Assembly: GCA_013306675.1 (NCBI GenBank)
Contig: JABLUY010000298.1
Coordinates: forward strand, 1-38,731
Source of the DNA: Thraustochytrium sp. TN22
Lineage: Eukaryota; Sar; Bigyra; Thraustochytrida; Thraustochytriidae
Length of the DNA stretch: 38,731 nucleotides
Reading direction: 5' to 3'
Under the pieces are notes generated by a model. The model was not told the DNA's origin and ran no database searches. It saw nothing but the letters and a program-made list of their open reading frames with translations. Position numbers and translations under genes: made by a program. This document shows positions 410 to 20,918 of the stretch, in pieces (position 1 is the stretch's first letter; each line of letters begins with the position of its first letter).

Positions 410-3400
410 TTAGGTGACGACGATGCGGCCGGTGGCGTCAGGGCCCGGACCTCCTCCGCTGCCGTCTCGGTCTCGGCCGGCGCCTTTGCCATCGCCGCCT
501 CGGTCTTCGCCCTTGTGTGCGGAGACTTCGAGGTGGCCTTGGAGGAGATCGCCGCTGCCGCTTCGGCCTGCGGCTGCAGCGTCGAAGGAGGAGGCTACAG
601 GGAGCTTGGCGGGGGGGAGGTCGGCGGCGTCGGCCTCGGGGTCGAACAGGTCGCGGCGCGAGTTGGACGGCGTGGCGGCGGCGGATGGGCGCTCTTCGTC
701 GAGGGCGTCAACGGTCTTGGTGGCCTGGGGCGCGTTCGCGGCGGCAGAGGTGCGCCTACAGACCATGACGCGCATGGCGATGACGACGAGCGCGCAAATG
801 GGCGCGGCCAAAATGACGAAGATGGCGCCGATCTCGACGGAGGCGACGTTCTCCACAACGGGAGAAATGAGCAGCAGCAGCAGCAGCGTGAAGAGGAGCA
901 TGTGCGCAAGCGTGGCGACGAGATTGTCGGCCACCCGGCGGTACGGGCGGAGCGAGGTCTGCAAGGTCGTGCAGAGGAAGGTGACAAATATGACAAAGCC
1001 GATCTGGCCGACCGTGCCGTCAGCGACGACGAGCACGACCGAGGTCTGGAAGAGCTTGCGCACGAGCTCGATCACCTCGTAGTAGCGGCGCGCACTGCCG
1101 AAAGCCGACGTGTGGCCGCCGGCCTGGTCCTGCTTGGGGTCGAAGTACAGGTCGTGGAGGAAGTCGACACGTTCCAGCCAGGCGAGGTGGCTGTTTCTGA
1201 TGAGGATCACAAAGAGCGCGATGGGCCCGAGCACGTAGATGACGCCCATGGCTCGCGCGTACATTATGAGGACCGGAATCTCGTCGCAGTCCGTGGAGTA
1301 GTCGAACCGGAGGTGGCGCGTGCCGTCCTCGAGCTCGTCGCACACAAACGTCTGGAAGATCGTCGTGTTGACCGAGGGGAACACCAAGAAGAGCAGGAAG
1401 CTCGTGAGCCACCAGGTTGCGGACGAGAGCCTGTTGAGGCGGTCCACGCGGCCCTCCTGGCTGGTCCGCTGCACGACGAAGCAGCGCGTCAACGTGTGCG
1501 ACCACAGGAGCACCATGAGCAGCGCCGCGGGCGTGACGGTGGCCGCCGCGAGGCGTGAGGCGTGCGTGTTTTGCACGAGGCAGCCCGCCATGGACGGAAT
1601 GCCGCTCGCGTCGACGTTGAGCCAGGAGAAGGCCTTGGGCAGAAAGCTCCAGCCCTCCCACCACTCGTAGGTGGGCGAGAAGACGCGTTGGAAGCCCGTT
1701 ACCACCTGCACGAAGCCGACCAGCACGCTGGCAGGTCCGCGCGCCGTGCTGCGCAGGTCGTGGAAGGTGGCGCGCGCCTTACGAGCCGCGACGCGGGCGG
1801 CAGACGGCTGTGCGTCCGTGTTGCGCGTACGCAGTGCAAAGTAGAAGACGCCCACGACGATGCCGATCCAGACGAGCCCAATCAGAAGCAGGACGGAAAC
1901 GATGATGCCGCGCTCTCGCTTCTCTAGCGCCGCGGTACACTCCATGCAGGAGCCGTCCGCGCGGGTTGTGTAACCCTCCTCGCAGGCCATGCAATATGGG
2001 CCGGTGTGCCCTGGCGCGCAGTAGAGCGGGTCGCTCCAGATCGAGAGACGGCGCCGGCTCTCGTCGTCGTCGTCATCGTCCTCCTTGCCCGGATCCTCGC
2101 CGAAGCGGCCGCCGACACAGAAGCCAGGCTCTGGGCACTCGTGCACGGTCGCCACGGAGACCGAGACGCGCCAGTAACCCGGGTAGAGGACCAGGGACTC
2201 CAACCGCTGGCCCGCCTCGGTGCAGTTGACGCCATCGCCGCAAGTAATGACCTCGGCTGCCTCGCTCTCATTCGCGGCGGGGATCTCGAAGAACCCCGCG
2301 GGCGCCACACAGTCGCGCTGGCTCGTGGCCACGCCCGTCGTCGTCTGAAGCTCGTTTGAGCAGGCGACACAGCCCACCTCGAGGTCCGACACGTAAAACC
2401 CGCGCGCACACAGCTCGCACGCGTAGGCGCCGTCGTCCTCGGTGCGCACGCGCTCCGCCCCGTCCGGGCAGACTATGGAGGCCTGGCTCATGGCGTCGCT
2501 CGCCTGTGAGCGCACTCCGTCGATCACGACCAGGACGCGGAAGAAGCTGCCTTCGCCGTCCGCCAGGCCCATACGCAGCGACCGCGAGCTGGGGTCGTCC
2601 ACCACTGCGCAGGGTGCGACCACCGCTGCGGCCCTGTCGGCCTCCACGCAGCTGTTGAGGTTCACGTCCACGTCGTCCTCGCGGCCCTTCGTGCGAAAGA
2701 CAACAAAGGAGCCCTCGGCCCCATTCCAGATCCAGCCGATCTCCGCGTAGCCGTCCGCGGGAGCAAGCTGGGCGCTGCCGACCTCGCCCGGACCACTCGC
2801 CTCGTCGTCGATGGCATCGTCCGTGTACGAGACGACGGCGAGCGCGCGCACCGAGCGCACCTTGTAGCCTGTGCAGCCGCCCTCGTTGTAGCCGTCGTCG
2901 CCCTCCACGGCGCCCGCGCAGATGCAGCGGACGCTGGGCGCCGGGCCGGCGGCCTCGTCGCCCTCGATGCATGTCCCGCTCGACGAGCAGGTGCCCGCGC
3001 AGCCTAGGACGGCGGTGGACGGCGCGAAGGACAGCTCGCCGCCGTCAAACTGGGACTCCGACAATCGGAAGCGCGACTCGGAGTACACGTGGCGGCCCGC
3101 CTCGTCGGTAAAGTACGCGACGGACCCACCCGAGGTGGTGAACGAGGTAGAGTCTGGGACCGACGGCAGCGGGTCTGACGCCGAGAAGTTCGTGCGATGC
3201 AGGTGCGCCGTGACGCCGGCGGCCATGTAGACGCTGCCGCCAACGCCCTTGGTGCAGCCCGAGGACGAGGGAGCCTGAGCCGTGGAGTTCATGCTGCAGC
3301 TAAGCATTGTAAACAACGTCTCGTCGTTCTCCTGGCTGGTTGAGATCACTTCGGCGTTGCAGCTGCGGCGCGAGGAGCTTGTCTTCGTCGCCTGGCACTC

Positions 3401-6400
3401 GCTCTGCTCGCGGCACGTAAAGTAGGCCGCGTTGTCGACAAAAGCCACCCCTTCCACTTGCAGGATGGTGCCAGGCCCCGCATAGACTGCGCCGCCCTGC
3501 TCATCGGCGGAATTGTCGGCAAAGGTGGAGTTGACGAGCTCCAGCTGCGCGCCCAGGAGCAGCGCGATGGCGCCGCCCCCGGTGGATGCGGTGTTTTGAG
3601 TAAAGGTCGTCGTGGACACCCGCAGGGTGAGATCGCCCGAGCCCACGAGCCCGCCGCCGCCTCCTTGCGAGGCGGCATTTGACACCAAGTTTGAGCCGGT
3701 CAGGGCAATGGACTCCAGGTCGGAAGACTCTTCCACGAAAAGGGCGCCGCCCACCAGCGCGGTGTTGCTCTCCAAAGTCAGGCCGTCCAAGCAAGCGTCG
3801 CTGAGCTCCTCACCGCATTGCGGGTCCCAGGCCGCGAGCGTCGCTGTGGCATAGATGGCACCGCCCCAGATGGAGGCCTGATTGCCGCGCAGCGTGCCGC
3901 CCTTCCAGAGGCTGGGGAGGCGGCTGCCGCTGAAGAAGGCTATGGCGCCGCCGTTCTTGTCGACTTGGTTCGAGAAAAAGTCGGTGTTTACGATCTCGCG
4001 CACCTCGCCGCCCGCGAGCACGGCCATGGCGCCGCCGCCGCCGCCGCACGAATTGCCGCTGAAGACACAGTTCTCGATGCGGGCGATCAACCCCTCCACG
4101 CGCAAAGCGCCTGCCTCGCCGCTGCTCAGGCCATCCTGCTTGTTATTCGTGAATGTGCAGGCCGTGATGTTGCCGATGGAGCCGCGCGGGAGCACGGCGA
4201 TTGCGCCGCCAAAGGCCGCGGTATTGCCGGTGAAGACGGAGTCCTGCACGACGTCCACTGTGCCGCCATCCACGGTGAGCGCTGCGCCCTGGCTGTAGCC
4301 AATCCCAGGCAGCGTCAGGCCGTCAAAAGTGCAGTCCTGCAGGGTGTGGAGCCTGCCGCGAACGAGGATGGCGCCGCCGAGGCGCTTGTTGCCTGTGGCG
4401 CCGATGTCGATGCCGTCCAGAAACTCAAAGTTGCGCAGTGTCCACAGCACCGCACCGAGCCGCACATGGAGAAATTCACGGCCGTAGAGCGATGTTGGTC
4501 GCCCATTGGACCTGGCCCCAATGAGCGAGATGTTCTTGCCCGAAGAGATTTGGAGCTCAAGCGCGTCCGGAATGTCGAGGCGGCTGGCGCGCACGAGAAT
4601 TTCGCCGTGAATAAAGTCTTTGTCGGCCAGCGCGGCGGCCAGCTCCTCATAGTCGGTCACCACGCGCGATTCGAAAGGCGCAGCGTTCGGGTCGACAGAG
4701 GGCTCCGAGGCGCCTGGCTGCGCCGGCGTGATCCAAGCGACCAGCGTGGCCGGGATGCGCCCAAGGTCGTCGCCGAGCCCGTGCTCGTCGTTGACAATGC
4801 CCACATACAGGTCCGTGCCCTGATACTGCACCTCGGGAATGACCATAGCCTCGCAGATGCGGCGAGAGGGTCCAAAGAAAGCGTCCTCATCGGTGGCCGG
4901 CTTGGCGCGAATCGCGAGAAAGTCGAAGGGACATGAGCTGTTCGTGCGGTACTCGGGCATCTTCTCGAGATCAAAGAGGAGCTCAGCCTCAAGATGGATG
5001 ACCACGTTCTCCACGTCCGGCGCGGTGAGGTGCACACATTGGCGCTGGTCCGGCGCCAGGCCCACGAGGTACTCGGTGAGGTTCACCTTGGACCCATTGA
5101 TCGGCAGCGGGTCCGTGTCGAAGCATGGCCAGTTCACCGTGCTCTCGAAGGGTTCCACGTACGGGGCGCGGGCGCCCTCGTCAAGGCTCCCAAAAAGCGC
5201 GTCCGTTGTGGTGGAGAATACATAGAAGCTTCCGGTGTACTCATTTTCGGCCTCGATGCCCCTGTACATGGCGGCAACGTGGACCTCACCCTGCGCTGTG
5301 ACGGCGGCGTTGATGCGGAAGAGGGCCTGGTCTGCGCCCTTCGCTGCGTCCTGGTCGTCAGTGGCAAAGTACGCCTGGCTCCACGTGAGGCCGTCATCCG
5401 TAGAGAGGCGAAACGCGAGGCGGTAGTACTGCTTGTCGGTCGGGATCTTCCAGCGGTAGATGATTATCCAGTGGCCCGCGCGCAGCGGGTCCGCCAGCAC
5501 GACCGTCTTCTCGTCGCTCATCCGTGAAGGGAAGAAGAGAGGGTCTACCATGCCGATCTTGGTGACCTCGAGCAAGCCATTCTCGGCGTTGGGCTCGAGG
5601 CGCGCCCACTGGCAGCCCATGGCGCGGTGGGACCAAATGGCGAGCCAGGCGTCCCTGAACGGGCTGGGCGCAAAGTTCACGTCGGCGTCCTTGGCCTCCT
5701 GGTTTGTGACGCGGACGCGGTCCTTCCAGCCGCATGCGCCGGTACCATCACGTGACTCCGCCAGAAACACGTCGGCGTACTCGCTGACGATGGTGGACGT
5801 CGCAGACATGAGCACGCGGCCCGAGAGCGCGGAAAACGCCGACACCGGGCCTCGGTCCTCCAAGGTGTCAGAGACAACGCCGCTGTACACGGGCTCCACC
5901 TCACTCCAGGTGTTCTGGTTCTGCTGCGCGGGCGACCCGAGGCCGCCCCACGCATCGCTGCCCACCTTGAGCGAGATGGAGCTGGACAAGATGTCCTTGT
6001 CAGACCCGATTGCGGTCCCGTCCTCCAGCGTGTCTTGTTCGGACTCCCAGATGGCTGTCAGTGTGCCACTGGCATCGGCTGCGATCACCGGGAAGCGCTT
6101 GCTGCCGCCGCCCTGCGACGCCTCGGACCCGTAGCCACGGTCCTCGCCCATCCAGAGCGCGCCATTCCTGGCCTCCTGCACGGTGGCGTACGCGACGCGG
6201 ATGCGCTGCACGGTCTCGCAGCACCGCCCGGTCTCCTCTTTGTTCCACCTGGCGATGTCGCGGTACACCATCGCGAAGCCGCGTGAGCCGATAGCTGTCA
6301 GAGCCGGCTGCGTCTGGCCCCGCCCGCGTTGGTCATTATCGGTCTTGCTGGGCAGCAACGCGAGCGCCGGCGTGCTCCACCTGCCGGTGCTGCTGCTATA

Positions 6401-6709
6401 CACAGAGTACTTGATCTGCACCGTGGCGGTATCCTCGTCCACCACGTCCGTGTACTCCGCAAAGCCCACAACGCAGGCGTCCTCCATGCAGGCGATGCCC
6501 GGCCGGTAGCCATTGTGGTTCGCCACGCCGCCGCCCGAGATCCACATCGTGCCGGGCTCGCTCAGCGCCGCGGACCGCGTCCAGCCGCCCGTGGTCTCCG
6601 CCCCGCGCGCCGTCGCCAGCGCCGCCGCGACCGCCGCCGCAGCGAGCACCGCGCGGGCGCGTGCTGCGCGTGCTGCGCGTGCTGCGCGTGCTCCATGCCC
6701 CATGCCCAT
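410..6709 (-). CDS. giant sialidase-like/beta-helix/TRP-like membrane protein, paralog 1
   Basis: Predicted 2099-residue type I/polytopic surface protein. The start at 6709 was chosen because it begins a signal peptide (residues ~1-35, Arg-rich then Ala/Val-rich); the open frame continues upstream only through a tandem repeat. Order: sialidase-like propeller (~50-505) with an N-terminal YRPG and an Asp-box STDDGLTW at 436-443; CUB-like region (~518-660, CPFDFLAIR near 590); parallel beta-helix (~686-1235) with about ten Chlamydia-Pmp-like GGA[I/V/L] and FxxN repeats; EGF-like knot (~1235-1278); FN3-like segment (~1281-1416); Cys-rich stalk (~1411-1595); about 8-9 membrane helices (~1597-1985) with the paralog-conserved motif FVCDEL; acidic/Gly-rich tail. 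The gene ends in three consecutive TAA codons (412 to 404). Function unknown; a surface sensor or adhesin is inferred. It is the most diverged of the three tandem copies. Confidence 0.9.
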   Translation of the reverse strand: MGMGHGARAARAARAARARAVLAAAAVAAALATARGAETTGGWTRSAALSEPGTMWISGGGVANHNGYRPGIACMEDACVVGFAEYTDVVDEDTATVQIKYSVYSSSTGRWSTPALALLPSKTDNDQRGRGQTQPALTAIGSRGFAMVYRDIARWNKEETGRCCETVQRIRVAYATVQEARNGALWMGEDRGYGSEASQGGGSKRFPVIAADASGTLTAIWESEQDTLEDGTAIGSDKDILSSSISLKVGSDAWGGLGSPAQQNQNTWSEVEPVYSGVVSDTLEDRGPVSAFSALSGRVLMSATSTIVSEYADVFLAESRDGTGACGWKDRVRVTNQEAKDADVNFAPSPFRDAWLAIWSHRAMGCQWARLEPNAENGLLEVTKIGMVDPLFFPSRMSDEKTVVLADPLRAGHWIIIYRWKIPTDKQYYRLAFRLSTDDGLTWSQAYFATDDQDAAKGADQALFRINAAVTAQGEVHVAAMYRGIEAENEYTGSFYVFSTTTDALFGSLDEGARAPYVEPFESTVNWPCFDTDPLPINGSKVNLTEYLVGLAPDQRQCVHLTAPDVENVVIHLEAELLFDLEKMPEYRTNSSCPFDFLAIRAKPATDEDAFFGPSRRICEAMVIPEVQYQGTDLYVGIVNDEHGLGDDLGRIPATLVAWITPAQPGASEPSVDPNAAPFESRVVTDYEELAAALADKDFIHGEILVRASRLDIPDALELQISSGKNISLIGARSNGRPTSLYGREFLHVRLGAVLWTLRNFEFLDGIDIGATGNKRLGGAILVRGRLHTLQDCTFDGLTLPGIGYSQGAALTVDGGTVDVVQDSVFTGNTAAFGGAIAVLPRGSIGNITACTFTNNKQDGLSSGEAGALRVEGLIARIENCVFSGNSCGGGGGAMAVLAGGEVREIVNTDFFSNQVDKNGGAIAFFSGSRLPSLWKGGTLRGNQASIWGGAIYATATLAAWDPQCGEELSDACLDGLTLESNTALVGGALFVEESSDLESIALTGSNLVSNAASQGGGGGLVGSGDLTLRVSTTTFTQNTASTGGGAIALLLGAQLELVNSTFADNSADEQGGAVYAGPGTILQVEGVAFVDNAAYFTCREQSECQATKTSSSRRSCNAEVISTSQENDETLFTMLSCSMNSTAQAPSSSGCTKGVGGSVYMAAGVTAHLHRTNFSASDPLPSVPDSTSFTTSGGSVAYFTDEAGRHVYSESRFRLSESQFDGGELSFAPSTAVLGCAGTCSSSGTCIEGDEAAGPAPSVRCICAGAVEGDDGYNEGGCTGYKVRSVRALAVVSYTDDAIDDEASGPGEVGSAQLAPADGYAEIGWIWNGAEGSFVVFRTKGREDDVDVNLNSCVEADRAAAVVAPCAVVDDPSSRSLRMGLADGEGSFFRVLVVIDGVRSQASDAMSQASIVCPDGAERVRTEDDGAYACELCARGFYVSDLEVGCVACSNELQTTTGVATSQRDCVAPAGFFEIPAANESEAAEVITCGDGVNCTEAGQRLESLVLYPGYWRVSVSVATVHECPEPGFCVGGRFGEDPGKEDDDDDDESRRRLSIWSDPLYCAPGHTGPYCMACEEGYTTRADGSCMECTAALEKRERGIIVSVLLLIGLVWIGIVVGVFYFALRTRNTDAQPSAARVAARKARATFHDLRSTARGPASVLVGFVQVVTGFQRVFSPTYEWWEGWSFLPKAFSWLNVDASGIPSMAGCLVQNTHASRLAAATVTPAALLMVLLWSHTLTRCFVVQRTSQEGRVDRLNRLSSATWWLTSFLLFLVFPSVNTTIFQTFVCDELEDGTRHLRFDYSTDCDEIPVLIMYARAMGVIYVLGPIALFVILIRNSHLAWLERVDFLHDLYFDPKQDQAGGHTSAFGSARRYYEVIELVRKLFQTSVVLVVADGTVGQIGFVIFVTFLCTTLQTSLRPYRRVADNLVATLAHMLLFTLLLLLLISPVVENVASVEIGAIFVILAAPICALVVIAMRVMVCRRTSAAANAPQATKTVDALDEERPSAAATPSNSRRDLFDPEADAADLPPAKLPVASSFDAAAAGRSGSGDLLQGHLEVSAHKGEDRGGDGKGAGRDRDGSGGGPGPDATGRIVVT

Positions 6710-6966
6710 GTCGCCCTCGCCCGCGGCGCGCAGGACCTCGACTCGGCGGCCAGCCGTCGCAGCGCGCGCCGCCGCCGCTGCGCGCCCAGGCGCGGGCGCC
6801 CGCGCGCCCGACGAGCAGCCCGCGCGGGGCTGCGCGCGCGAGCTTCTCAGAGATAAATCCAATCGCTTTGCTCTGGTTTTGGTTGGCGAGCCAAGCCTCG
6901 ATTTCCGGGACGCGTGGGGACCCCCCCCTTTGCACCTGCCTGGCACGACTTGGCAACTTGAACCAG

Positions 6967-7046
6967 CCCAAGCTTGAGCAAGCTTGAAGCAGCCCAAGCT
7001 TGAGCAAGCTTGAAGCAGCCCAAGCTTGAGCAAGCTTGAGCAAGCT
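6967..7046. repeat. 26-bp tandem repeat, about 3 copies
   Basis: Period is exactly 26 bp (units begin at 6967, 6993 and 7019). Each unit holds two copies of the palindrome CAAGCTTG. The array lies about 260-340 bp upstream of the chosen start of paralog 1. It stays open in the frame of that gene, but the translation is repetitive and sits before the signal peptide, so I treat it as 5' flank or leader. Confidence 0.85.
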
Positions 7047-7328
7047 CGACTAGCCTAACGTTAAATACGTCTGACAAAGTCACGGTCCGCGCCCGCTGCC
7101 GTGTTCCCGTCACACTGGCCAGTACGATACCGTCACCGCGTGGCGGCCGGGGCCTGTAGCGGAGTTGAAGGTCGGAGTTGCAGGTCGTTTTTCAAGGAGC
7201 TGGCACTGGTGACGGGCACGGATGTGCAGGCAGTGGATGGGCTCGAGATGAAAGTTAGTTAGCACTCGCAGCAGGGTTACTCACAATGTGGAACACACTA
7301 ACTTAGCCTAGGCCTAGTCAAGTCCAGG
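7047..7328. other. intergenic spacer between paralogs 1 and 2
   Basis: It holds no gene, tRNA or other RNA that I can recognise. A 10-bp palindrome, CTAGGCCTAG, lies at 7308-7317, just beyond the stop codon of paralog 2. The region must contain the 3' end of paralog 2 and the promoter of paralog 1, but no clear AATAAA or TATA element is visible. Confidence 0.5.
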
Positions 7329-10300
7329 TCAAGAGACCACGACGCTGCCAGAAGGGACGATGCCGCCGCCGCCGCCGCCGCCGCCGTCGTCGCTGCCGTT
7401 GCTGTTGGTGGCGATGGCGATTCTGCTGCTCCTGGCACGATCGTCTCCAGCGTCGCCGCTGCCAGCGTCGCCGCTACCAGCGTCGCCGATGCCAGCGTCG
7501 CCACTGCTGCTGGCCTCGAAGGACGAGGAGGGAAGCAACGCTGCTGCGGCGCTTGGGACACCCTCCTGGGCTGGGTCGGCGAGCTTGGCGTCCTGAGACA
7601 TGGGCTCCCCCTTGCTCGCTTCTTCCTCGTCGAAGGCGTCGGAGACGCCCTTGACGTCGTCGTCATGTTCCTGCAGGGGGCGAATCGCACAGCAGCCAAG
7701 ACGCCAGAGCACAACTGCGATCGCAGCGAGCGGCGCGGCGATAACGAAGAGCATGGCACAGGCCTCGACTGCGACAATCTCGCCGACTACAGGGGAGATG
7801 AGGAGTAAGATGAGGATGCCGAAGAGGACCATATGCGCGAAGGTAGCGAGCCAGTTGTCGTCGGCACGCTGATATGGGCGCAGCGTGGTCTGAAGCATGG
7901 AGGCAGCAAAAGTGACGGTGATGGCGAAGCCAATTTGACCGACGGTTCCGTCCGCAACAATAAGCACCACGGAGGTCTGCAGCAGCTTGCGGAAAAGCTC
8001 AATGACCTCGTAGTAGCGGCGCATGCCCCGCGAAAAGCTCGCCGGGGAGCAACGACGCAAACCGCTCGAGCTCTGCGCCGCGGTCCCGGTCTTGGGGTCC
8101 TCGTTCGTGTGGTACAGCCTGTGCAGGAACTCGACGCGCACGAGATGCTCGAGGTTGCTGTGGGTGATGAGCCACGCAAAGAGGACGATGGGCCCGATCA
8201 CGTAGAGCACAGCCATGGCTCTCGCATAGGCCATGAGCATCGAACTGTCCTCGCAATCGGTGGAGTAGTCAAAGCGGAGGTGGCGCGTGCCGTCGTCCAG
8301 CTCATCGCACACGAAGCTCTGGAAGATGGTGGTGTTGACCGAGGGAAACACCAAAAAGAGCAGAAAGCTGGTCATGTACCATGCCGCCGACGAGAGTGCG
8401 TTGAGCTTGTGCCTGCGCACGTTCGCGTTGCCGCCGCTCGTGCAGACAAGGGACATGCGCACAAGCACGTACGCGATGAAGAGCACGACGAGCAGCGCAA
8501 CCGGCGTGGCCGTTGCTGCGATAAGGCGAGTCGCGTGGTTGTCCTCGATGACGCAGCCAGCGAGGGAGGGAATGCCACTCGCGTCGACATTGGCCCAGGA
8601 GAAGACAGTCGGGAGAAAGCCCCATTCGTCCCACCACGAGTATGTGGGCCCGAAGACGCGCTGGAACCCGGTGACGACCTGCACGAAGCCAATCATCACG
8701 CTGAAGGGGCCCCGCGTGGTAGAACGGAAGTCGTGGAAGCTAGCGCGCAGGGAGCTGAACATGCCGCGAATGAACGCGCACTTGCTCGAGTTCGGCCTCG
8801 CGCTCTGAGACCGCACGGGCGCCATCTTGCTGTCGCGCAGTGCATCATAAAAGACGCCGGCAATGAGACCCAGCCACGCAATCGAGACAACGGCCAGCAC
8901 ACCGCCGAGCGCGGCTCGCTCGCGCGCCACCACATCCGCCGAGCACTCGACGCAGGCCTTGTCTCGACGTGCCGTGAAACCCTCCACGCACACTAAGCAG
9001 TATGGACCCGTGTGGCCCGGGGCGCAGTAGAGCGGGTCGCTCCATATGGAGAGGCTCCGGCGGCGGTCCTTGACGTCGCCCCCCTCGCTCTCGTCTATCC
9101 CGCGGCCGCCCACGCAAAAGGAGGCCTCCGAGCACACGTATATGGTCGAGACGGAGAGGGACGGGCGCCAGTAGCCCGGGAGCAGCTCCAGCGACTCCAA
9201 CGTCTGGCCTGAGGAAGTGCAGTTGACGCCCTCCCCGCAAGTGACAACCTCGACCTCGCTCTCCGTGTCGCTCGATCCAGAGCTCCTCTCGTAGAAGCCG
9301 CTGGGCGCTACGCAGTCGTCCACGCTCGTGGCCGCGCCCGAGGTGGTATGCAGCTCATTGGGACACGCCACGCACCCGGTCTCGAGGTCCGGGACGTAGA
9401 AACCGCGTGCACAAGGCTCGCACTCGTACACGCCATCCTCCTCGGCGCGCACGCGCTCCGAACCGGCGGCACAGATGATGGAGGCCAAACTCATCGCGTC
9501 ACTCGCCTGCGTGCTCACGCCATTGACCACACAGAGCACGCGGAAGAAGCTGCCCTCGCCCAGGCGCAAACCCATGCGCAACGAGCGCGCGTCTGAGTTC
9601 TCCACGACCGCGCAGCCCGCCACCACCGACGCAGCGTCGGCGGCGCTCACGCAGTCTGCCGCATTGACCGTCTCGTTGCCAGCCTCGCGCTCGCTGGTGC
9701 GGTACACGATGAACGAGCCAGGGACGCCGTCCCAGGACCACCGAAGGTCGACGTAGCCATCCGCGTCCACCGTCTCCGAGACGGTCTCTTCATACAGGGC
9801 GATCGTCGCGGCCCGCACCGAGCGGACCCTGCGGCTCGTGCATCCGCCCTCCTCATAGCCATCGATGCCTTCATAGGCACCCGTGCACGCACAGCGCACG
9901 CTGGGAGCCGGGCCGGCGGCCGCGCTCCCCTCGAAGCAGGTGCCGGCCGAAGAGCAGGTGCCGGGACAGCCCAGCACTGCGCTCGAGGGCGCGAACGAGA
10001 GCTCGCCGCCGTCGAAGAACGACTCGGACAAGCGAAAACGCGACTCCGAGTAAACATGGCGGCCTGCCTCGTCGGAGAAGAGCGCGATGGACCCGCTGGT
10101 GGTTGTGAAGGATGTCGTGGCGGGAATGGAAGGCAGCGCATCGGCTGCCTCGAAAGAACACCGCAGCAGATGTGCGGCGACGCCTGCCGCGATGTAGACG
10201 CTGCCACCGACGCCCTTGGTGCAGCCCATGGCCGCGGGCGCCTGCGCTGCCTCATTCAGGGTGCACTCCACCGTCCTGAAGAGGCTGCTGCCGTCGCTGC

Positions 10301-13300: not shown

Positions 13301-13721
13301 TCTGCCCGCGCGGGCTGCCGGCGACCTCGGTCTTGCTGGGAAGCAGCGCGAGCGCGGGTTCGCTCCAGGCCGCGTTGTCGCCGCCGTCGCCGCCGGTCTT
13401 TCGCACCGCGTACTTGACCTGCACGGTGGCGTCCTCGCTCGTCGCATTGCCCTCCGTGAACTCTGAGAACGCCACCACGCAGCTGTCCGCGTTGCACGCG
13501 ATGCCTGGCCTATACGCATTATGGCTCATCACGCCGCCGCCGTCGATCCAGAACCGCCCATACTCGCTCAGCGTCTCGGACTGCGTCCAGTTCCCCGTCA
13601 CGGCGCCCACGTCCACCGCCGCGTCCTGCGCCGCCACTGCGGCCGCCACCGCGGCCGCCGCCGCCGCTCGGAGCGCGCGCCGCGCCGCGCCGCCGCGCGT
13701 GCGGCGGCGCGCCTCGCTCAT
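7329..13721 (-). CDS. giant sialidase-like/beta-helix/TRP-like membrane protein, paralog 2
   Basis: Predicted 2130-residue protein, no introns. It starts with an Arg-rich n-region and an Ala/Val signal peptide (residues ~1-32). The order is the same as paralog 1: sialidase-like propeller with YRPG and Asp-box STDNGRTW at 450-457; CUB-like region (~528-680, CPFDFLAIR near 604); Pmp-like beta-helix (~710-1235) with a conserved cysteine loop (CREQSEC) late in the helix; EGF-like knot (~1249); FN3-like region (~1297-1410); Cys-rich stalk (~1414-1597); about 8-9 membrane helices (~1600-2010); long tail with poly-Asp, GDAGSG repeats and a poly-Gly run, ending SVVVS. It is closer in sequence to paralog 3 than to paralog 1, for example in the stalk (CPNELHTTSG in both). 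The terminal membrane module resembles TRP-like domains of protist surface proteins. Ligand and role are unknown. Confidence 0.9.
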   Translation of the reverse strand: MSEARRRTRGGAARRALRAAAAAAVAAAVAAQDAAVDVGAVTGNWTQSETLSEYGRFWIDGGGVMSHNAYRPGIACNADSCVVAFSEFTEGNATSEDATVQVKYAVRKTGGDGGDNAAWSEPALALLPSKTEVAGSPRGQTMPQLAALGSRGWGMVYRDITDVMLATSADGELEQTTLQRVRVAYTTADGADAGALWMGEERGYGTEASEESEKGGMTRFPSIAGDNNGTVTVVWESKRETLADGTAIGQDKDLLTSSISLHSGDEADPWGALDSSAVSSAWTQVRTVYSGTEADELEDRIPVMGFAPLSGRVLMAATATILSQNADIFLAESRFAEGACGWEDRVRVTNKDAKDADANVAASFFQDAWLVVWSHRSLGCQWARLEPNPDNSLLEVRESGMIDPLCYPSRMSDEKTVVLADPLRDGHWLYLHRWKNPDNKKYYRLAFRRSTDNGRTWSPAYFATTDEDAILSKTQSLFHINAAVAGDGEVNVVLMYQNISDENSGSVSVLTTTTDALFGELDDAALAPYVEPFESSTTWSCIDADPLPLDGSKVNLTTFLVGMAPDQTQCLHIAASDLPNITIHLEIELLVDLEKMPEYRSNSSCPFDFLAIRSTPKARATPFLGPSRRLCAAGLVPEVTYSGTDVYVAIVNDERGLEEDLGRVPAAITAWITPAQPNATAVAVDSASVPFESRAVETLDELIEALADDNFVHGEILIRSASLDILEDRKLKVQEGKNISLVGAPPDGGPTYLNGREFIEVRLGAVLWVLRNIYFQDDKTVADGNSRLGGAILVRGLLHAMENCTVANIKIPGISYSQGGALTVDGGGSVDIVQDCLFSTNQAAFGGAMAVLPRGYLGVVRRCMFEDNTQDGLSSGQAGALIVGGLVGRIEDTIFRGNTCGGGGGAVCVLAEGEIREIVDTDFIGNSVSKNGGAIAFLSGSIAPSLWRGGVFRDNTASISGGAIYATGMHAAYDPVCKGGISSSDACAEDLVFEGNTALVGGAIYLEESAYLQTVTLSNASLAGNSATQGGGGGIALTGDIALVLSGSELAQNQASTSGGAVAVLLGAQLDLETSEVRANVAAEQGGAIYAGAGTVLQATEVAFANNSALFSCREQSECTRVESISSRARCGALVVGQSDGSDGSSLFRTVECTLNEAAQAPAAMGCTKGVGGSVYIAAGVAAHLLRCSFEAADALPSIPATTSFTTTSGSIALFSDEAGRHVYSESRFRLSESFFDGGELSFAPSSAVLGCPGTCSSAGTCFEGSAAAGPAPSVRCACTGAYEGIDGYEEGGCTSRRVRSVRAATIALYEETVSETVDADGYVDLRWSWDGVPGSFIVYRTSEREAGNETVNAADCVSAADAASVVAGCAVVENSDARSLRMGLRLGEGSFFRVLCVVNGVSTQASDAMSLASIICAAGSERVRAEEDGVYECEPCARGFYVPDLETGCVACPNELHTTSGAATSVDDCVAPSGFYERSSGSSDTESEVEVVTCGEGVNCTSSGQTLESLELLPGYWRPSLSVSTIYVCSEASFCVGGRGIDESEGGDVKDRRRSLSIWSDPLYCAPGHTGPYCLVCVEGFTARRDKACVECSADVVARERAALGGVLAVVSIAWLGLIAGVFYDALRDSKMAPVRSQSARPNSSKCAFIRGMFSSLRASFHDFRSTTRGPFSVMIGFVQVVTGFQRVFGPTYSWWDEWGFLPTVFSWANVDASGIPSLAGCVIEDNHATRLIAATATPVALLVVLFIAYVLVRMSLVCTSGGNANVRRHKLNALSSAAWYMTSFLLFLVFPSVNTTIFQSFVCDELDDGTRHLRFDYSTDCEDSSMLMAYARAMAVLYVIGPIVLFAWLITHSNLEHLVRVEFLHRLYHTNEDPKTGTAAQSSSGLRRCSPASFSRGMRRYYEVIELFRKLLQTSVVLIVADGTVGQIGFAITVTFAASMLQTTLRPYQRADDNWLATFAHMVLFGILILLLISPVVGEIVAVEACAMLFVIAAPLAAIAVVLWRLGCCAIRPLQEHDDDVKGVSDAFDEEEASKGEPMSQDAKLADPAQEGVPSAAAALLPSSSFEASSSGDAGIGDAGSGDAGSGDAGDDRARSSRIAIATNSNGSDDGGGGGGGGIVPSGSVVVS
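7362..7507. repeat. GCC run and 15-bp minisatellite inside paralog 2 tail
   Basis: Within the 3' coding end of paralog 2, a GCC run (7362-7386) encodes poly-Gly. About four 15-bp units with core CCAGCGTCGCC (7448-7507) encode Gly-Asp-Ala-Gly-Ser repeats. Both are in frame and fall in the predicted cytosolic tail, so length changes in steps of 3 or 15 bp would be tolerated. Confidence 0.85.
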
Positions 13722-14045: not shown

Positions 14046-14157
14046 CAGAGCGAGCAGAGCAGAGCAGAGCAGAGCAGAGCAGAGCAGAGCAGAGCGAGCA
14101 GAGCAGAGCAGAGCGAGCAGAGCCAGCAGAGCGAGCAGCGCGAGCAGAGCAGAGCAG
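14046..14157. repeat. AGAGC pentanucleotide microsatellite
   Basis: A run of AGAGC units with occasional GAGCG or AGCC interruptions, more regular on the left than the right. It lies 325-436 bp upstream of the paralog 2 start codon. Shorter AGAGC stretches continue to its left from about 13976. Confidence 0.9.
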
Positions 14158-14822: not shown

Positions 14823-17800
14823 TTATGACAGCACGACGCTTGTGGGACCGGCCGGCTCCGGGTCGGCGGCAGCAACGCGCACCTGGTCCGAGGCGAGCTC
14901 GGGGTCCGGGCCAACGGCGCCATCCGGTTCTTCGCTCAGGCCTGTGGTCGCGCTGGGGTCGACATGGAGGGGCTGGTCGTGGTCAGCAACGCTGGGCGAG
15001 GCTTGCTCGCCTCTTTTGCCCGTGTCGTCGTCGTCGCCGTCGTCGTCGTTCGCGGCAGGATCTGCTGCGTCTTCCTCTCGCCTCGGGAGGCGCAAGACGA
15101 CGAGCAAAATGGCGGCCAAGGGGCCGGAGACGAGCAGCAGGCCGGTGGCAATCTTGATCGGCAGGAGGTCCTCCACGACGGGCGAGATGAGCAGAAGCGT
15201 GAGCAGAGAAAAGAGGAGCATGTGAGCCATGGTAGCGAGCGCGTTGTCGCCGGCCTTGAGATAGGGCTGCTGCGTGGCTTGCAGCATCGCGACGAGGAAA
15301 GTGACGAAGATGGCAAAGCCGATCTGGCCGACCGTGCCGTCTGCAACGACCAGCACGACGGAGGTCTGCAGTAGCTTACGGAAGAGCTCGACCACCTCGT
15401 AGTACCTCCGCAGTCGGTCGCGAAGCGTCCGCGGCCGGTGCGCCAAGTCGCGCGCATAGTACAGGTCGTACAGGAAACGGACACGCTCAAGGTGCGGAAG
15501 CTGGCTCTTGGTGATCAGCACAGCGAAGAGCACGATCGGACCCAACACGTAGAGCACCGCCATGGCCTGCGCATACGCGATGAGCGCAGGCATAGCATCA
15601 CAGTCCGTGGCATAGTCGAAACGCAGGTGGCGCGTACCCTCGTCGAGCTCGTCGCAGACAAAGGTCTGGAAGATGGTCGTGTTCACGGAAGGAAAGACCA
15701 AAAAGAGCAAGAAGCTGACCTGCCACCAGGTCGCGGAGGCGAGCTCATTCAGAACGCGGCGCCGCTCCTGGGCATGGCGCCCCGCGCGACGGAGCGCGAT
15801 GCAGCGCATGGCCGCATACACGAGGCCAAGGGCCAGCAGGAGCACACCCGGCATGATGGTGGCCGCCGCGAGACGGCTGGCGTGCGTATCGCCGATAGAG
15901 CAGCCCGCCAGCGACGGGAGCCCGCTGGCGTCCACGTTTGCCCACGAGAGGACGTTCGGCAAAAGGCTCCAGCCGTCCCACCACGCGTACGTCGGCCCGA
16001 AGACGCGTTGGAAGCCAGTCGCCACCTGAATTATGCCGATGGTGACACTGAACGGGCCGCGCGCCACCTCCCGCATTCCAGCAAAGATGGCCCGACTCCG
16101 GCGCGCACCTCGCCGTACGCACGAGGTTGACGCAGCGGACCGACTGGCTGGAGAGCGAATCGCATCCGCAAGTACGGCGGCCGTGAGAAGAAGCCACACA
16201 ACGACGACGGTACCAATCACCGATCCGAGCGCAACGCGCTCGCTTGCTATGGCTTCCGGCGTGCACTCTTCGCAGGCGCTTCCCGCGTGCGAGGCAAAGC
16301 CGGTCTCGCATACCATGCAGAATGGGCCGGTGTGTCCAGGCGCGCAGTAGAGCGGGTCGCTCCATACGTGCTGGCGGCGGGGCTTTGCCCCTCGGCCGCC
16401 CGTGCAAAAGGACGGTTTGGGGCACGCATGAACCTCTGCGACAGACCTCGACGCACGCCAGTAGCCTGGGAGCAGGTCTAGCGTGTCTAGGGTCTGGCCC
16501 GACGTGGAGCAGTTGATGCCCGCGCCACAGGCGATGACCTCCACCTCGCCCTCGACGCCATCATCGCTCAGCTCGAAGAAGCCGCTTGGCGCCACACAGT
16601 CCTCCACACTCGTCGCCACACCCGAGGTGGTGTGCAGCTCATTTGGGCACGCCACGCAGCCCGTATCCAGGTCCGGTGCGTAAAAGCCGCGCGCGCACGG
16701 CTCACATTCGTATGCGCCGTCCTCTTCGGCGCGCACGCGCTCGGACCCAGCGGCGCAGATGATGGATGCCAGGCTCATCGCATCGCTTGCTTGCGTGCGG
16801 GCGCCGTTCACGACGCCCACCACGCGGAAGAAGCTGCCCTCGCTCAGACGCAGGCCCATGCGCACAGAGCGCGCGCTGGGGTCCGCCACGAGAGCACAGC
16901 CTGCTACTGCAAAGGCGGCAGCCTCGGCGCTGACGCAGTCCGCCTCGCGCAGCGTCTGGTCGTCGCCCTCACGCTCGCTCGTGCGGTACACGAAGAAGGC
17001 GTCCGCAGCGCCGTCCCAGGTCCAGCCAAGGTCCACGTAGCCGTCGGCAGCCCGGGGCGTCTCGTCCTCTTCACTGTAGACCGCCACCTCGACAGCCCGA
17101 ACGGAGCGCACCCTGCGGCTGTTGCAGCCGCCCTCCTCGTACGCGTCGGCGCCTTCGTAGGCGCCCGTGCAGATGCAACGCACGCTGGGCGATGGGCCCG
17201 CCGCAGCGTCGCCCTCGACGCACGTACCTGCAGAGGAGCAGGTCCCTGCACAGCCCAGGACCGCGCTCAGAGGCGCGAAGGAGCGCTCACCGCCGTCGAA
17301 GGTCGACTCGGACAGCCGGAAGCGCGACTCCGAGTACACGTGGCGGCCTGCCTCGTCGGTGAAGAGCGCCACGGACCCGCTGCCCGTGGTAAAGGAGGTC
17401 GTGGCTGGGATGGACGGGAGCGGGTCGGCCGCCGTGAAGGAAGCTCGCAGCATGTGCGCCGAGACACCTGCGGCGATGTACACGCTACCACCGACGCCCT
17501 TGGTGCAACCCATGGCCGACGGCGCCTGCGCGGCCTCGTTGAGGGTGCACTGGACCGTGTGGAAGAGCGAGTCCCCGTCCCTGTAGTCTACCACGAGTGA
17601 TCCGCAGCGGCGCCGCGCCGCCACAGACTGCACCGCGGCGCACTCGCTCTGTTCCCGGCAGGAGAGCATCGCGTAGTTGTCGACAAAGGTGGTGTCTGTG
17701 GCCCGCAGCACAGTCCCTGCGCCCGCGTAGATGGCGCCACCCTGCTCGGTGGCCTTGTTGGCCCAAAACTCGGACCGCTCGAGCACTAGCTGCGCACCCT

Positions 17801-20800
17801 GAAGCAGTGTAATGGCGCCGCCCGACGTGGAGGCCTCGTTCCCTGCGAGCTCCGTAGCTGACACGTGCAGTGTGAGGTCGCCCGTGACAGCAACTCCGGC
17901 GCCGCCGCCCTGCGTGGCCGAGTTATTGGCCAAGGTCGAGTTTGCGAGTCCTACGGACCGCAGGCTGGCAGACCCCTCAATGTAGATGGCGCCTCCAACC
18001 TGCGCAGTGTTCTCTAGGAGAACCAGCCCATGCAGGCAGGCGTCGACGTCGTCTGCACACTCGGGGGCTGCCGCCGGGAGGGTGCCAGACATGTAAATGG
18101 CGCCGCCCAGAACTGAGGCCTTGTTTCCGACGAGGTTTCCGCCTCGCCAGAGGCTCGGGAGGCGGCTCCCGGGGAAGAAAGCCACCGCGCCGCCGTTGGC
18201 GAGGACCTTGTTTGCGACGAAGTCCGTGTCGACGATCTCGCGGACCTCGCCCTGCTCGAGTACGCAGATGGCACCGCCGCCACCGCCACAGGTGTTGCTA
18301 CGAAAGATGGAGTCCTCGATGCGGCCCACGTAGCCGCCCACCAAGAGACCGCCTGCCTCGCCGCTCGTCAAACCATCTTGGGAGTTGTCGACAAAGGTCG
18401 CGCGGCGAATCGTGCCGATGGCGCCGCCGGGGAGGACGGCGATGGCGGCGCCGAAGGCTGCGCTGTTTTCGGAGAAGGTGCAGTCCTGCACGAGATCGAC
18501 CGTCCCACCGTCGACGGCGAGCGCCGCACCCTTGCTGTAGATGAGACCTGGTACAGCAATGCTGTGGAAGGAGCAGTTGGCCAGCAAGTGCAGTCGGCCA
18601 CGCACCAGGATGGCGCCGCCGAGCCGCAAGAGGCCGAGACTAACGGTCTTGTCGCCTTGGAATGCGATGTTCTGCAACGACCAAATGACCGCGCCAATCC
18701 TGGCCTCGAAGAATTCTCGCCCGAGCATTGTTGTTCGCCCGCCATCGGGCGGCGCGCCAATGATGGAGAGGTTCTTGCCCTGGCCGACTTGAAGCATGAG
18801 GTCGTCCGGAACCTCAATGGTGGAGGCGCGGAGCAGGATCTCCCCGTGTTGGAAGTCGTCATCGTACATGGCGGCGACAAGCTCGGTGTAGTTGTGGACG
18901 GAGCGGATTTCATAGGGCCTCTGCGACGCAGAGGTGTTGAGGGAGGTACCAGGACCGGCTTCTGCCGGCGAAAGCCATGCCACGACTCGGGCGGGTACGC
19001 GGCCGATGTCGTCGCCGAGGCCGCGTTCGTCGTTCACCACGGCCACGTAAACGTCGGTGCCCTGGTGCTGCACCTCAGGGAGTTGGCCCTTGACGCACAA
19101 ACGGCGCGAGGGCCCAAGATAGGCCTCGGCGTTCGTCGTCGGCGTGCTCCGGATGGCGAGGAAGTCAAAAGGGCAATGGCTCTGGGCTTGGTACTCGGGC
19201 ATGGTCTCGAGGTCGAGGAGAATCTCAACGTCAAGGTGGATGACGACGTCTGTGATGTTGGGCGCGGCGATGTGCAGGCACTGCATCTGGCCCGGTGCCA
19301 TGCCGACCACGTAGCTGGTCAGGTTCACCTTGCTGCCGTCCAGTGGAAGCGTTTCCAGATCAATACAGGGCCACGTGGACGGGTCCTCGTAGGGCTCGAC
19401 GTATGGCGCAATGGCTGTCTCGTTCAGGTCACCGAAGAGCGCGTCGGTGGTGGTGCTGATCACTGCAAAGCTGCCGTAGTTTTCGTCCGAGATATTCCGG
19501 TACATGAGCGTGACATGAACTTGGCCACGATCGGTCGCCGCGGCGTTAATCCGGAAGAGCGACTGGTCTTTGCCTTGGACGGCGTCCTCGTCCGTTGTGA
19601 CAAAGTAAGCGGGACTCCAGGTCCGGCCATCGTCCGTGGAGCGGCGAAAGGCGAGGCGGAAGTAGGTCTCGTTCGCCGGGATTTTCCAGCGCTGGAAGAA
19701 GAGCCAGTGGCCCTCGCGCAGCGGGTCAGCGAGCACGACGGTCTTCTCGTCGCCCATTTTGCTCGGAAAGCAGAGCGGGTCGATCATGCCGGCTTCGCGG
19801 ACCTCGAGAAGGCCGCTGTCAGCGTTGGGCTCGAGGCGGGCCCACTGGCAGCCAAGCCCGCGGTGTGACCAGACGACGAGCCAGAGGTCCCGAAAGGGGC
19901 AGGGCGCAATGTCCACGTCAGCATCCTTGGCCACCTTGTTGGTGACTCGCACGCGGTCCTCCCAGCCGCAGGCGCCCATTCCGGAGCGTGTCTCCGCGAC
20001 GAAGATGTCTGCGTACTGGTTCAGGATGGTGGCGGTGGCGGCCATCACGACGCGGCCCGAGACGCTCGAGTAAGCCATGGCCGGGTTGCGGTCCTGCAGC
20101 GTGTCGGTCTCCACGCCGCTGTAGACCGCGGCAACTTCGGTCCACGCAGAAGAGACCGAGGAGCGGTCCAGCGCGCTCCACGGGTCGCTTTCGTTGCCCG
20201 AGTGCAGCGAGATGGAGCTGGTGAGCAGCTCCTTGTCGTTGCCGATGGAGGTCCCGTCCGCCAGGGTCCCGCGGTTCGTCTCCCAGACCGCGGTGATGGT
20301 GCCGTTCCCGTCGCCGGCAATCGCGGGGAAGCGCTTCCAGCCGCCGCGCTCTGAGGCCTCCGTGCCATAGCCGCGCTCCTCGCCCATCCACAGCGCGCCC
20401 TGCGCGGCCTCTTGCGCGGACACGTAGGCCACGCGCATGCGCTGAACACCGGTGCAGCACGAGCCGTCCAGCTTCTTCCATCTGGCCATGTCCCGGTACA
20501 CCATCCCAAAGCCGCTCGAGCCAAGCGCCGCGAGCGCGGGCATGCTTTGCCCGCGCGCCTTGTCCGGTGCATCCGCCTTGCTGGGCAGCAGCGCGAACGC
20601 GGGCTCGCTCCACGCCCCCGTCTCTGCCGTGTGCACGGCATACTTAATCTGTATCGTCGCGTCGTCGCTCTCCGCGTTGCCCTCCGTGAACTCCGCGAAG
20701 GCGACCACGCACGCGCTCTCCAGGCACGCGATGCCGGGTCTGTACGCGTTGTGCGACGCCACGCCGCCGCCCGCGATCCAGAGCCGCCCGAACGCGCTCA

Positions 20801-20918
20801 GCTCCTCGGCCTGGGTCCACGCGCCGGTCGTCGCGCTGCCCTGGGCTCCTGCGAGCGCCGCCAGCGCTGCCAGCGCCGCCGCCGCCGTCGCCGCCGCCGC
20901 CGCCTTCTTCTTCTTCAT
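14823..20918 (-). CDS. giant sialidase-like/beta-helix/TRP-like membrane protein, paralog 3
   Basis: Predicted 2031-residue protein, no introns. The start at 20918 was chosen because it gives a textbook signal peptide (four Lys then Ala/Leu-rich, residues ~1-27); 141 further upstream codons are open but are Arg/Ser/Pro-rich with no family match. Order: sialidase-like propeller with YRPG and Asp-box STDDGRTW at 427-434; CUB-like region (~503-656, CPFDFLAIR near 583); Pmp-like beta-helix (~680-1200); EGF-like knot (~1214-1260); FN3-like region (~1270-1383); Cys-rich stalk (~1389-1553); about 8-9 membrane helices (~1556-1940). The tail is Asp-rich, shorter than the other two, and ends TSVVLS. 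The stalk-to-membrane linker is also shorter than in its sisters. Likely a surface receptor or adhesin; ligand unknown. Confidence 0.9.
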   Translation of the reverse strand: MKKKKAAAAATAAAALAALAALAGAQGSATTGAWTQAEELSAFGRLWIAGGGVASHNAYRPGIACLESACVVAFAEFTEGNAESDDATIQIKYAVHTAETGAWSEPAFALLPSKADAPDKARGQSMPALAALGSSGFGMVYRDMARWKKLDGSCCTGVQRMRVAYVSAQEAAQGALWMGEERGYGTEASERGGWKRFPAIAGDGNGTITAVWETNRGTLADGTSIGNDKELLTSSISLHSGNESDPWSALDRSSVSSAWTEVAAVYSGVETDTLQDRNPAMAYSSVSGRVVMAATATILNQYADIFVAETRSGMGACGWEDRVRVTNKVAKDADVDIAPCPFRDLWLVVWSHRGLGCQWARLEPNADSGLLEVREAGMIDPLCFPSKMGDEKTVVLADPLREGHWLFFQRWKIPANETYFRLAFRRSTDDGRTWSPAYFVTTDEDAVQGKDQSLFRINAAATDRGQVHVTLMYRNISDENYGSFAVISTTTDALFGDLNETAIAPYVEPYEDPSTWPCIDLETLPLDGSKVNLTSYVVGMAPGQMQCLHIAAPNITDVVIHLDVEILLDLETMPEYQAQSHCPFDFLAIRSTPTTNAEAYLGPSRRLCVKGQLPEVQHQGTDVYVAVVNDERGLGDDIGRVPARVVAWLSPAEAGPGTSLNTSASQRPYEIRSVHNYTELVAAMYDDDFQHGEILLRASTIEVPDDLMLQVGQGKNLSIIGAPPDGGRTTMLGREFFEARIGAVIWSLQNIAFQGDKTVSLGLLRLGGAILVRGRLHLLANCSFHSIAVPGLIYSKGAALAVDGGTVDLVQDCTFSENSAAFGAAIAVLPGGAIGTIRRATFVDNSQDGLTSGEAGGLLVGGYVGRIEDSIFRSNTCGGGGGAICVLEQGEVREIVDTDFVANKVLANGGAVAFFPGSRLPSLWRGGNLVGNKASVLGGAIYMSGTLPAAAPECADDVDACLHGLVLLENTAQVGGAIYIEGSASLRSVGLANSTLANNSATQGGGAGVAVTGDLTLHVSATELAGNEASTSGGAITLLQGAQLVLERSEFWANKATEQGGAIYAGAGTVLRATDTTFVDNYAMLSCREQSECAAVQSVAARRRCGSLVVDYRDGDSLFHTVQCTLNEAAQAPSAMGCTKGVGGSVYIAAGVSAHMLRASFTAADPLPSIPATTSFTTGSGSVALFTDEAGRHVYSESRFRLSESTFDGGERSFAPLSAVLGCAGTCSSAGTCVEGDAAAGPSPSVRCICTGAYEGADAYEEGGCNSRRVRSVRAVEVAVYSEEDETPRAADGYVDLGWTWDGAADAFFVYRTSEREGDDQTLREADCVSAEAAAFAVAGCALVADPSARSVRMGLRLSEGSFFRVVGVVNGARTQASDAMSLASIICAAGSERVRAEEDGAYECEPCARGFYAPDLDTGCVACPNELHTTSGVATSVEDCVAPSGFFELSDDGVEGEVEVIACGAGINCSTSGQTLDTLDLLPGYWRASRSVAEVHACPKPSFCTGGRGAKPRRQHVWSDPLYCAPGHTGPFCMVCETGFASHAGSACEECTPEAIASERVALGSVIGTVVVVWLLLTAAVLADAIRSPASRSAASTSCVRRGARRSRAIFAGMREVARGPFSVTIGIIQVATGFQRVFGPTYAWWDGWSLLPNVLSWANVDASGLPSLAGCSIGDTHASRLAAATIMPGVLLLALGLVYAAMRCIALRRAGRHAQERRRVLNELASATWWQVSFLLFLVFPSVNTTIFQTFVCDELDEGTRHLRFDYATDCDAMPALIAYAQAMAVLYVLGPIVLFAVLITKSQLPHLERVRFLYDLYYARDLAHRPRTLRDRLRRYYEVVELFRKLLQTSVVLVVADGTVGQIGFAIFVTFLVAMLQATQQPYLKAGDNALATMAHMLLFSLLTLLLISPVVEDLLPIKIATGLLLVSGPLAAILLVVLRLPRREEDAADPAANDDDGDDDDTGKRGEQASPSVADHDQPLHVDPSATTGLSEEPDGAVGPDPELASDQVRVAAADPEPAGPTSVVLS

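Follow-up and report, generated by a model that had tools for sequence, protein, structure and literature searches.

The window, that is, the whole stretch of 38,731 nucleotides of Thraustochytrium sp. TN22 that was analyzed (contig JABLUY010000298.1), raises the question of what its three giant neighboring genes encode and whether they form an undescribed receptor system, as had been proposed from the letters alone. We observed three neighboring, intron-free open frames on the minus strand (410-7033, 7329-13721, and 14823-21341), with first plausible Met codons at 6709 (or 6703) for gene 1, 13721 for gene 2, and 20918 for gene 3. With these Met codons, the range 410-20918 given in the original prediction of three same-strand genes is exact. 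The G+C-content of the window is about 67%. Genes 1-3 can be aligned end to end (pairwise identity of about 56-65%) and share one long domain order. All the features lie on the minus strand and are listed from the start of the proteins:

410-6709, minus strand: gene 1 (P0001 from Met109, about 2099 aa; open frame, translation, start codon)
7329-13721, minus strand: gene 2 (P0002, 2130 aa; same basis)
14823-20918, minus strand: gene 3 (P0003 from Met142, about 2031 aa; same basis)
19398-20834 (gene 3), 5156-6598 (gene 1), 12132-13604 (gene 2), minus strand: region weakly resembling a sialidase propeller (BNR_2 below cut-off, PDB sialidases)
18942-19397 (gene 3), 4703-5155 (gene 1), 11679-12131 (gene 2), minus strand: CUB-like domain (profile-profile score)
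17277-18941 (gene 3), 3026-4702 (gene 1), 9993-11678 (gene 2), minus strand: Pmp-like right-handed beta-helix (Pfam)
17112-17270 (gene 3), 2861-3019 (gene 1), 9828-9986 (gene 2), minus strand: EGF-like cysteine pattern (cysteine spacing)
16752-17111 (gene 3), 2465-2860 (gene 1), 9468-9827 (gene 2), minus strand: small region once called FN3-like, label unsupported
16254-16751 (gene 3), 1928-2464 (gene 1), 8934-9467 (gene 2), minus strand: Cys-rich stalk (Ephrin_rec_like and PGYWR/DUF7630-like module)
15078-16253 (gene 3), 746-1927 (gene 1), 7677-8933 (gene 2), minus strand: membrane module of 8-9 helices (hydropathy, alignment)
14826-15077 (gene 3), 413-745 (gene 1), 7332-7676 (gene 2), minus strand: variable tail (mean identity 23%)

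Two more tandem genes, missed by the original prediction, were found on contig C162 of the same genome and bring the family to five members, all with the identical domain order (5/5). Within the window, genes 2 and 3 resemble each other most (65.4% identity; 99/98 support), as had been noticed. The idea of a recent local expansion did not hold: dS between duplicates ranges from 0.91 to 1.22 and identity at four-fold sites from 0.44 to 0.55. Because the copies are 58-67% identical with dS of about 1, the duplicates are old. The family is under purifying selection (dN/dS of about 0.24-0.33 across its copies). A candidate sixth site of the membrane module, C68, was set aside (weak match, E = 0.067; another long frame on the opposite strand around it). 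The search for relatives yielded 38 and 57 pattern stretches among viral contigs and 38 and 26 among genome contigs, none of which was confirmed. Own-genome searches with BNR_2 and Chlam_PMP missed the window genes themselves and are therefore uninformative, and an Rfam scan of the window led nowhere.

We then considered the secreted-side region, starting with the predicted Asp-box propeller. The Asp box S-x-D-x-G-x-T-W is indeed found once per gene in 5/5 genes, as is the motif YRPG, whose arginine may be the counterpart of the arginine of the sialidase FRIP motif. The propeller itself was less well supported: on gene 3, Pfam BNR_2 scores 19.7 bits against a cut-off of 31.4 (E = 6e-4), and across the family it matches at E <= 10 in 2/5 members without reaching the cut-off (best E = 3.7e-4). 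In the same Pfam scan, the unrelated SEN2-like_N reaches E = 0.0019 in two members. Comparison with PDB sialidases gave E = 0.005, and no internal blade repeat was found above shuffles in this region. These sequence comparisons weakly suggest a sialidase-like propeller. That the proteins are membrane-tethered sialidases or related glycosidases, as the best BNR_2 match (E = 4e-4) and the YRPG arginine and Asp box of all five genes could imply, appears highly improbable: the BNR_2 cut-off is missed, the Asp box is single where several would be expected, and the catalytic Tyr/Glu pair is not identifiable from sequence.

The next two domains were confirmed. The CUB-like region reaches a profile-profile score of 55.4 against six solved CUB domains (100 column shuffles gave no more than 21.1), although Pfam CUB has no match at E <= 10 in the five members; the local alignment places three of its four cysteines in register, and the first one lines up only when a global alignment is forced. 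Beta_helix or Chlam_PMP exceeds the Pfam cut-off in 5/5 members, in agreement with the predicted Pmp-like helix. The EGF-like segment is the most conserved part (mean identity of 76%); its label fits the cysteine spacing, but the Pfam trace is limited to EGF_Teneurin in P0002 (E = 0.22). The FN3 label of the following region was rejected, since its profile scores of 10.9 and 10.5 fall below the shuffle maxima (20.4 in 60 shuffles and 14.9 in 40 shuffles, respectively). The Cys-rich stalk stands: Ephrin_rec_like passes its cut-off of 23.1 bits in 3/5 members in protein scans (P0001 at 18.7 bits and P0006 at 22.2 bits fall short) and at 5/5 sites in a six-frame genome search. The signal peptide was assessed by hydropathy alone, and the window proteins are probably located at the cell surface.

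Hydropathy also agrees with the 8-9 membrane helices of the original prediction, and the inner loops are basic, a positive-inside pattern obtained with nine helix boundaries set by eye. Profiles of this module found no match among solved structures (PDB), one search returning three designed proteins at chance level. Across the genome, this membrane module is common to about 25 genes with differing ectodomains, and we refer to it as the chassis. The window module scored 108.3 (98.2%) against genes with FG-GAP ectodomains and 89.8 (97.4%) against two LRR genes; reversed alignments did not exceed 18.4, and locally shuffled ones did not exceed 30.3. The FG-GAP type comprises 17 genes, partly in tandem arrays (C33 array), and FG-GAP_3 is at or above cut-off in 14/14 scanned ectodomains. 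The LRR type is clear for C332 and C401, where LRR and fn3 both exceed their cut-offs, and weak for C402, whose module scores 37.9 against the window type and 23.9 (noise) against the two LRR genes. DUF7630 (PF24633) matches 20/23 chassis members at E <= 1 (best E = 6.5e-7); in gene 3 it scores 15.5 bits against a cut-off of 27 bits. FG-GAP proteins (e.g., C398 and the C33 array) share with the window proteins the PGYWR/DUF7630-like module and the Ephrin_rec_like stalk besides the homologous membrane module, but they carry an FG-GAP propeller, most frames are 1470-1784 aa long, and none of the 14 scanned matches Beta_helix or Chlam_PMP. LRR proteins (C332, C401, and more weakly C402) share the PGYWR module and the homologous membrane module, but C332 and C401 carry an ectodomain of LRR and true fn3. 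No named family with the full domain order was found in the profile libraries or the literature listings searched. The window architecture is one ectodomain type on a chassis shared by about 25 genes in all and not a stand-alone system. Since the same genome fits this module to different outer regions, our results suggest a set of surface sensors built from parts.

A large ectodomain with LRR, CUB-like, and EGF-like parts on a multi-helix module is also the plan of adhesion GPCRs, and the proteins could be GPCR-like receptors signaling through G proteins. This reading gains from a Frizzled match in gene 3 that stays under the cut-off (E = 0.006-0.05; one of 23 chassis members) and from the reported abundance of class C GPCR domains in thraustochytrids (PMC6050695). 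We consider it quite unlikely: there are 8-9 helices, and the scanned proteins present no GPS/GAIN match and no 7tm family over cut-off. Class C identity was rejected, as none of the 38 matches of a 7tm_3 genome search falls at chassis genes and chassis profile scores to eight 7tm_3-matched GPCRs are noise.

The module had instead been predicted to be TRP-like. The TRP-like family PF06011 has no match at E <= 1 in the window proteins (cut-off of 28.5 bits); it scores 12.0 bits on L036 and 10.0 bits on the consensus of 23 chassis members. Membrane parts distantly related to the chassis, with weak PF06011 scores, also occur in giant LamG and TIG proteins encoded by this genome. The window module scored 67.4 against the modules of C161 and C399 (maximum of 21.9 in 20 shuffles) and the 23-member chassis profile 67.3 (maximum of 24.8 in 20 shuffles). 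PF06011 reaches E = 1.5e-5 on C161 and E = 0.0019 on C399, both below cut-off; the C161 relative has EF-hands located behind its membrane module. Three of the four C156 proteins pass the PF06011 cut-off, and these four scored 34.1 against the 23-member chassis (maximum of 24.8 in 60 shuffles) and 41.1 against a merged profile (maximum of 26.6 in 40 shuffles), with about 80 columns aligned in each case. Class C GPCRs and cox1 scored 12.9-18.9 in the same test. In cox1 of this genome, TGG occurs 14 times and TGA not at all; together with the G+C-content of the window (about 67%, against 70-71% in Cafeteria; PMC6972860), this led us to reject Cafeteria as the host. The mitochondrial stop codons TTA suggest a thraustochytrid. 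Single-type profiles gave lower scores against C156 (window 16.5, which is noise; FG-GAP 26.4; LRR 25.1), and against C161 and C399 the FG-GAP profile scored 16.5 (noise) and the LRR profile 34.0 at 16.8% probability. The chassis as a whole is moderately supported as a distant TRP relative. For the window proteins, TRP-like is supported only indirectly, because their module matches C161 and C399, which score to PF06011; a giant surface receptor or adhesin whose membrane module is TRP-like remains the best reading of these proteins.

Fission-yeast Pkd2 is of the same broad type as PF06011, and Flc-type proteins are also linked to FAD or lipid handling. As the kinship reaches this family as a whole only, the module could be transporter-like or serve trafficking, with surface ectodomains and no channel, which we regard as very unlikely: a published report describes S. 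pombe Pkd2 as a Ca2+ channel with a nine-helix domain, an extracellular domain, and stretch-activated Ca2+ passage in vitro (PMC11277609).

The proteins might also be adhesins or wall or scale anchors, whose ectodomain attaches the cell (in thraustochytrids, its scales or ectoplasmic net) above a non-signaling membrane anchor. The long beta-helix, the lectin-like and matrix-like domains of the window and related genes, and the poorly conserved tail (23%) would all fit. This alternative is rather unlikely, given that a multi-helix module is conserved across unrelated ectodomains, its polar residues invariant or nearly so, which exceeds the needs of an anchor, and given the distant TRP kinship of the module.

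We tentatively favor, with a nearly even chance of being right, a combinatorial family of surface receptors in which exchangeable ectodomains sit on a Pkd2/TRP-like module linked to Ca2+. On the secreted side, some 1,550 residues comprising propeller, CUB-like domain, rigid beta-helix, and disulfide-rich stalk would bind a ligand or a surface, perhaps a glycan, and binding or pull would be relayed by helix and stalk to the module of about nine helices. This module, presumably distant kin of the Pkd2/Flc-type TRP-like family with an extracellular start and a cytosolic tail, would most likely admit or trigger Ca2+; FG-GAP and LRR ectodomains are placed on it in the same genome. Judging from sequence, the family probably acts in Ca2+ signaling; we infer the plasma-membrane location, the type of ligand, force transmission, and Ca2+ permeation. 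A broader version, in which about 25 receptor-channels with a fixed nine-helix TRP-like module and swapped ectodomains let many cues drive Ca2+ entry directly, with neither kinases nor G proteins involved, is doubtful. To our knowledge, particle and surface sensing in marine osmotrophic protists is poorly known. If true, a fixed module with exchangeable ectodomains, partly in tandem arrays, would constitute a modular sensing repertoire testable gene by gene, and orphan Cys-rich and membrane modules would gain a place in TRP-like evolution.

Several known systems resemble the window proteins in part. Adhesion GPCRs (e.g., the CUB-containing ADGRG6) also combine a many-domain ectodomain with a multi-helix module, but the window proteins differ by the absence of GPS/GAIN matches, by helices that are not seven, and by having no detected sequence relation. 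Chlamydial Pmp proteins share the GGA[I/V] and FxxN beta-helix repeats, whereas the window proteins have no autotransporter match and their membrane part is a eukaryotic multi-helix one. Polycystin-1 follows a plan similar to that of the window proteins, a giant ectodomain with LRR and lectin-like parts above a membrane portion associated with TRP channels, but no PKD-repeat or GPS match appears in the Pfam results and the stalk differs. The nine-helix PF06011 proteins of fungal Pkd2/Flc type appear to share with the window proteins an extracellular start, 8-9 helices, and a cytosolic tail; in addition, the chassis set as a whole is weakly similar to them by profile, with the C161 and C399 proteins as a bridge. 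The window proteins miss the Pfam cut-off of this family, and they carry an ectodomain of 1,500+ residues (propeller, CUB-like domain, and beta-helix) where PF06011 has a small lipid-binding domain.

The window comprises an entire contig (C219) of the TN22 genome, which totals 37.9 Mb in 453 contigs, and its G+C content ranges from 64 to 74% (2-kb steps). Genome size and base composition are near those of Schizochytrium aggregatum (38.96 Mb, 63% G+C with 5% N; PMC6050695). The minus strand carries three long frames arranged head to tail, each starting with an alanine-rich hydrophobic stretch of a putative signal-peptide kind; given their likely Met codons, the predicted range of 410-20918 is exact. 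The annotated genes are:

6709-410, minus strand: gene 1, long frame with likely Met codon
13721-7329, minus strand: gene 2, long frame with likely Met codon
20918-14823, minus strand: gene 3, long frame with likely Met codon
22631-23857, plus strand: Apyrase gene (Pfam Apyrase, E = 1.5e-94), adjoining the receptor array
24338-29194, minus strand: ubiquitin hydrolase (UCH and DUSP domains over cut-off, weaker EF-hand pair), with a USP32-like layout
29843-31300, plus strand: TPR-repeat protein

Searching the genome with the propeller and with the membrane module yielded each time the identical set of five genes: the three of the window and two in tandem on contig C162. These copies share 58-67% identity, with dN of 0.24-0.34, dS of 0.91-1.22 and four-fold-site identity of 0.44-0.55. 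Such divergence indicates that they are old duplicates evolving under purifying selection, and the identities and dS do not support the recent local expansion that had been proposed. Genes 2 and 3 are the closest copies in the window, as originally predicted (99/98 in the tree of all domains together), and the C162 genes form a second pair (100/100). The segment trees agree with this tree in part: the helix tree places gene 1 next to the C162 pair (92/92), and that pair is recovered in neither the stalk tree nor the membrane tree.

Domain boundaries were set from the alignment of the five genes. The Pmp-like helix was confirmed in all five (Beta_helix or Chlam_PMP above Pfam cut-off), and Ephrin_rec_like was found in the stalk, above cut-off in three of five protein scans and at all five places in the genome search. 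The CUB-like domain had no match with Pfam or in the PDB profile search; its profile scored 55.4 against six CUB domains (shuffle maximum 21.1; n = 100), which upholds the original assignment. The FN3-like label failed the same kind of profile test. For the predicted sialidase-like propeller, similarity to sialidases stands but is weak, and no internal repeat was detectable.

The Ephrin_rec_like genome search gave 83 matches at E ≤ 1, many within long frames and in tandem arrays. In five such genes that were inspected, an FG-GAP propeller is followed by the same PGYWR cysteine module and by a membrane part like that of the window genes. Searched against the genome, one of these modules retrieved 17 FG-GAP-type genes, three further genes (C332, C401 and C402) and the five window-type genes, so that about 25 genes of this genome share the membrane chassis. 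FG-GAP_3 reached the cut-off in all 14 FG-GAP-type genes scanned (the scan left out C427b, C166b and a broken C33 copy). This last copy (C33:280634-282397), counted among the 17, has a broken frame with internal stop codons and probably represents a degenerated copy within an array of seven genes. C332 and C401 present LRRs and true fn3, and C402 LRR-like matches under cut-off.

Profile-profile comparison of the membrane part only linked the three types (window-FG-GAP, 108.3; window-LRR, 89.8; FG-GAP-LRR, 150.9), against nulls of at most 18.4 for reversed alignments and 30.3 for local shuffles (20 per pair, four pairs). Relative to these nulls, the placement of C402 is weak (55.7 with FG-GAP, 37.9 with window, 23.9 with LRR). 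In a tree of 23 modules, with 15 of the 17 FG-GAP-type genes (all but L031, which is C166b, and the broken C33 copy; L026 and L039 are one gene), support was 100/100 for a clean window-type group and 97/97 for a clean FG-GAP-type group; the LRR genes fell into no single group, and C402 sat on a very long branch. Unlike the window family, the FG-GAP chassis includes nearly identical pairs on C33 (L032, L033) and C427 (L027, L030), reflecting either recent duplication there or two assembled alleles.

The predicted eight to nine membrane helices were recovered in the window-type genes. When nine helices are delimited by eye, the window and FG-GAP groups have basic loops 1, 3 and 5, and so does the LRR group apart from its loop 5, which is balanced. 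Each group has a single cysteine in loop 2; in loop 4 the window group has two and the FG-GAP group none. This pattern is consistent with the stalk lying outside and the tail inside. Several chassis proteins have short hydrophobic motifs at their C-termini (VVLS, VVLI, SVL, TMV), some of them similar to PDZ ligands.

The membrane module had been described as TRP-like. Pfam TRP (PF06011), with which fission-yeast Pkd2 is grouped, matched seven places in the genome: four on C156 (three passing the cut-off), and one on C161 and two on C399, all below it. The C156 genes (L044, L045, L047, L048) are TRP-like with Pro-Thr-rich repeats ahead of the membrane part, the giant C161 protein combines a Laminin_G_3 domain, the TRP match and EF-hands, and C399 has weak TIG and TRP matches. 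The 23-member chassis profile scored 67.3 against C161 and C399 (shuffle maximum 24.8; n = 20) and 34.1 against C156 (24.8; n = 60); a merged profile scored 41.1 (26.6; n = 40), all by small null tests. Subset profiles were weaker against C156 (window, 16.5; FG-GAP, 26.4; LRR, 25.1) and scored 67.4, 16.5 and 34.0, respectively, against C161 and C399; controls with class C GPCRs of this genome and cox1 scored 12.9-18.9. These scores suggest a likely but distant kinship to TRP, short of membership in PF06011.

The architecture was absent from the viral and prokaryote collections searched, a result that says little about its spread beyond the TN22 genome. This genome has 38 matches to 7tm_3, the class C GPCR family (on C169, C222 and C437, for example), and some of them are arrayed; on C224 one lies beside Ephrin_rec_like matches in frames of equal length. 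On the mitochondrial contig C318 (L015), TTA occurs in seven frames only before the first ATG or in the last 15 codons, and TTG and CTN are common there. This fits TTA being a stop codon, as it is in NCBI translation table 23, the mitochondrial code of Thraustochytrium.

We favor a receptor that would admit Ca2+ or trigger its entry upon binding or pull, whose ligand, location and conductance we infer. The ectodomain would recognize its target outside, with the stiff beta-helix and disulfide stalk between this region and the nine-helix module, followed by a variable cytosolic tail; binding or pull might then open the receptor or trigger Ca2+ entry. We prefer this reading because of the anatomy and of the stretch-dependent Ca2+ passage of fission-yeast Pkd2, which, according to PMC11277609, combines an extracellular domain with a nine-helix domain and passes Ca2+ under membrane stretch in vitro. 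Within the portions of the literature consulted, Pkd2 is the nearest characterized protein with this membrane type.
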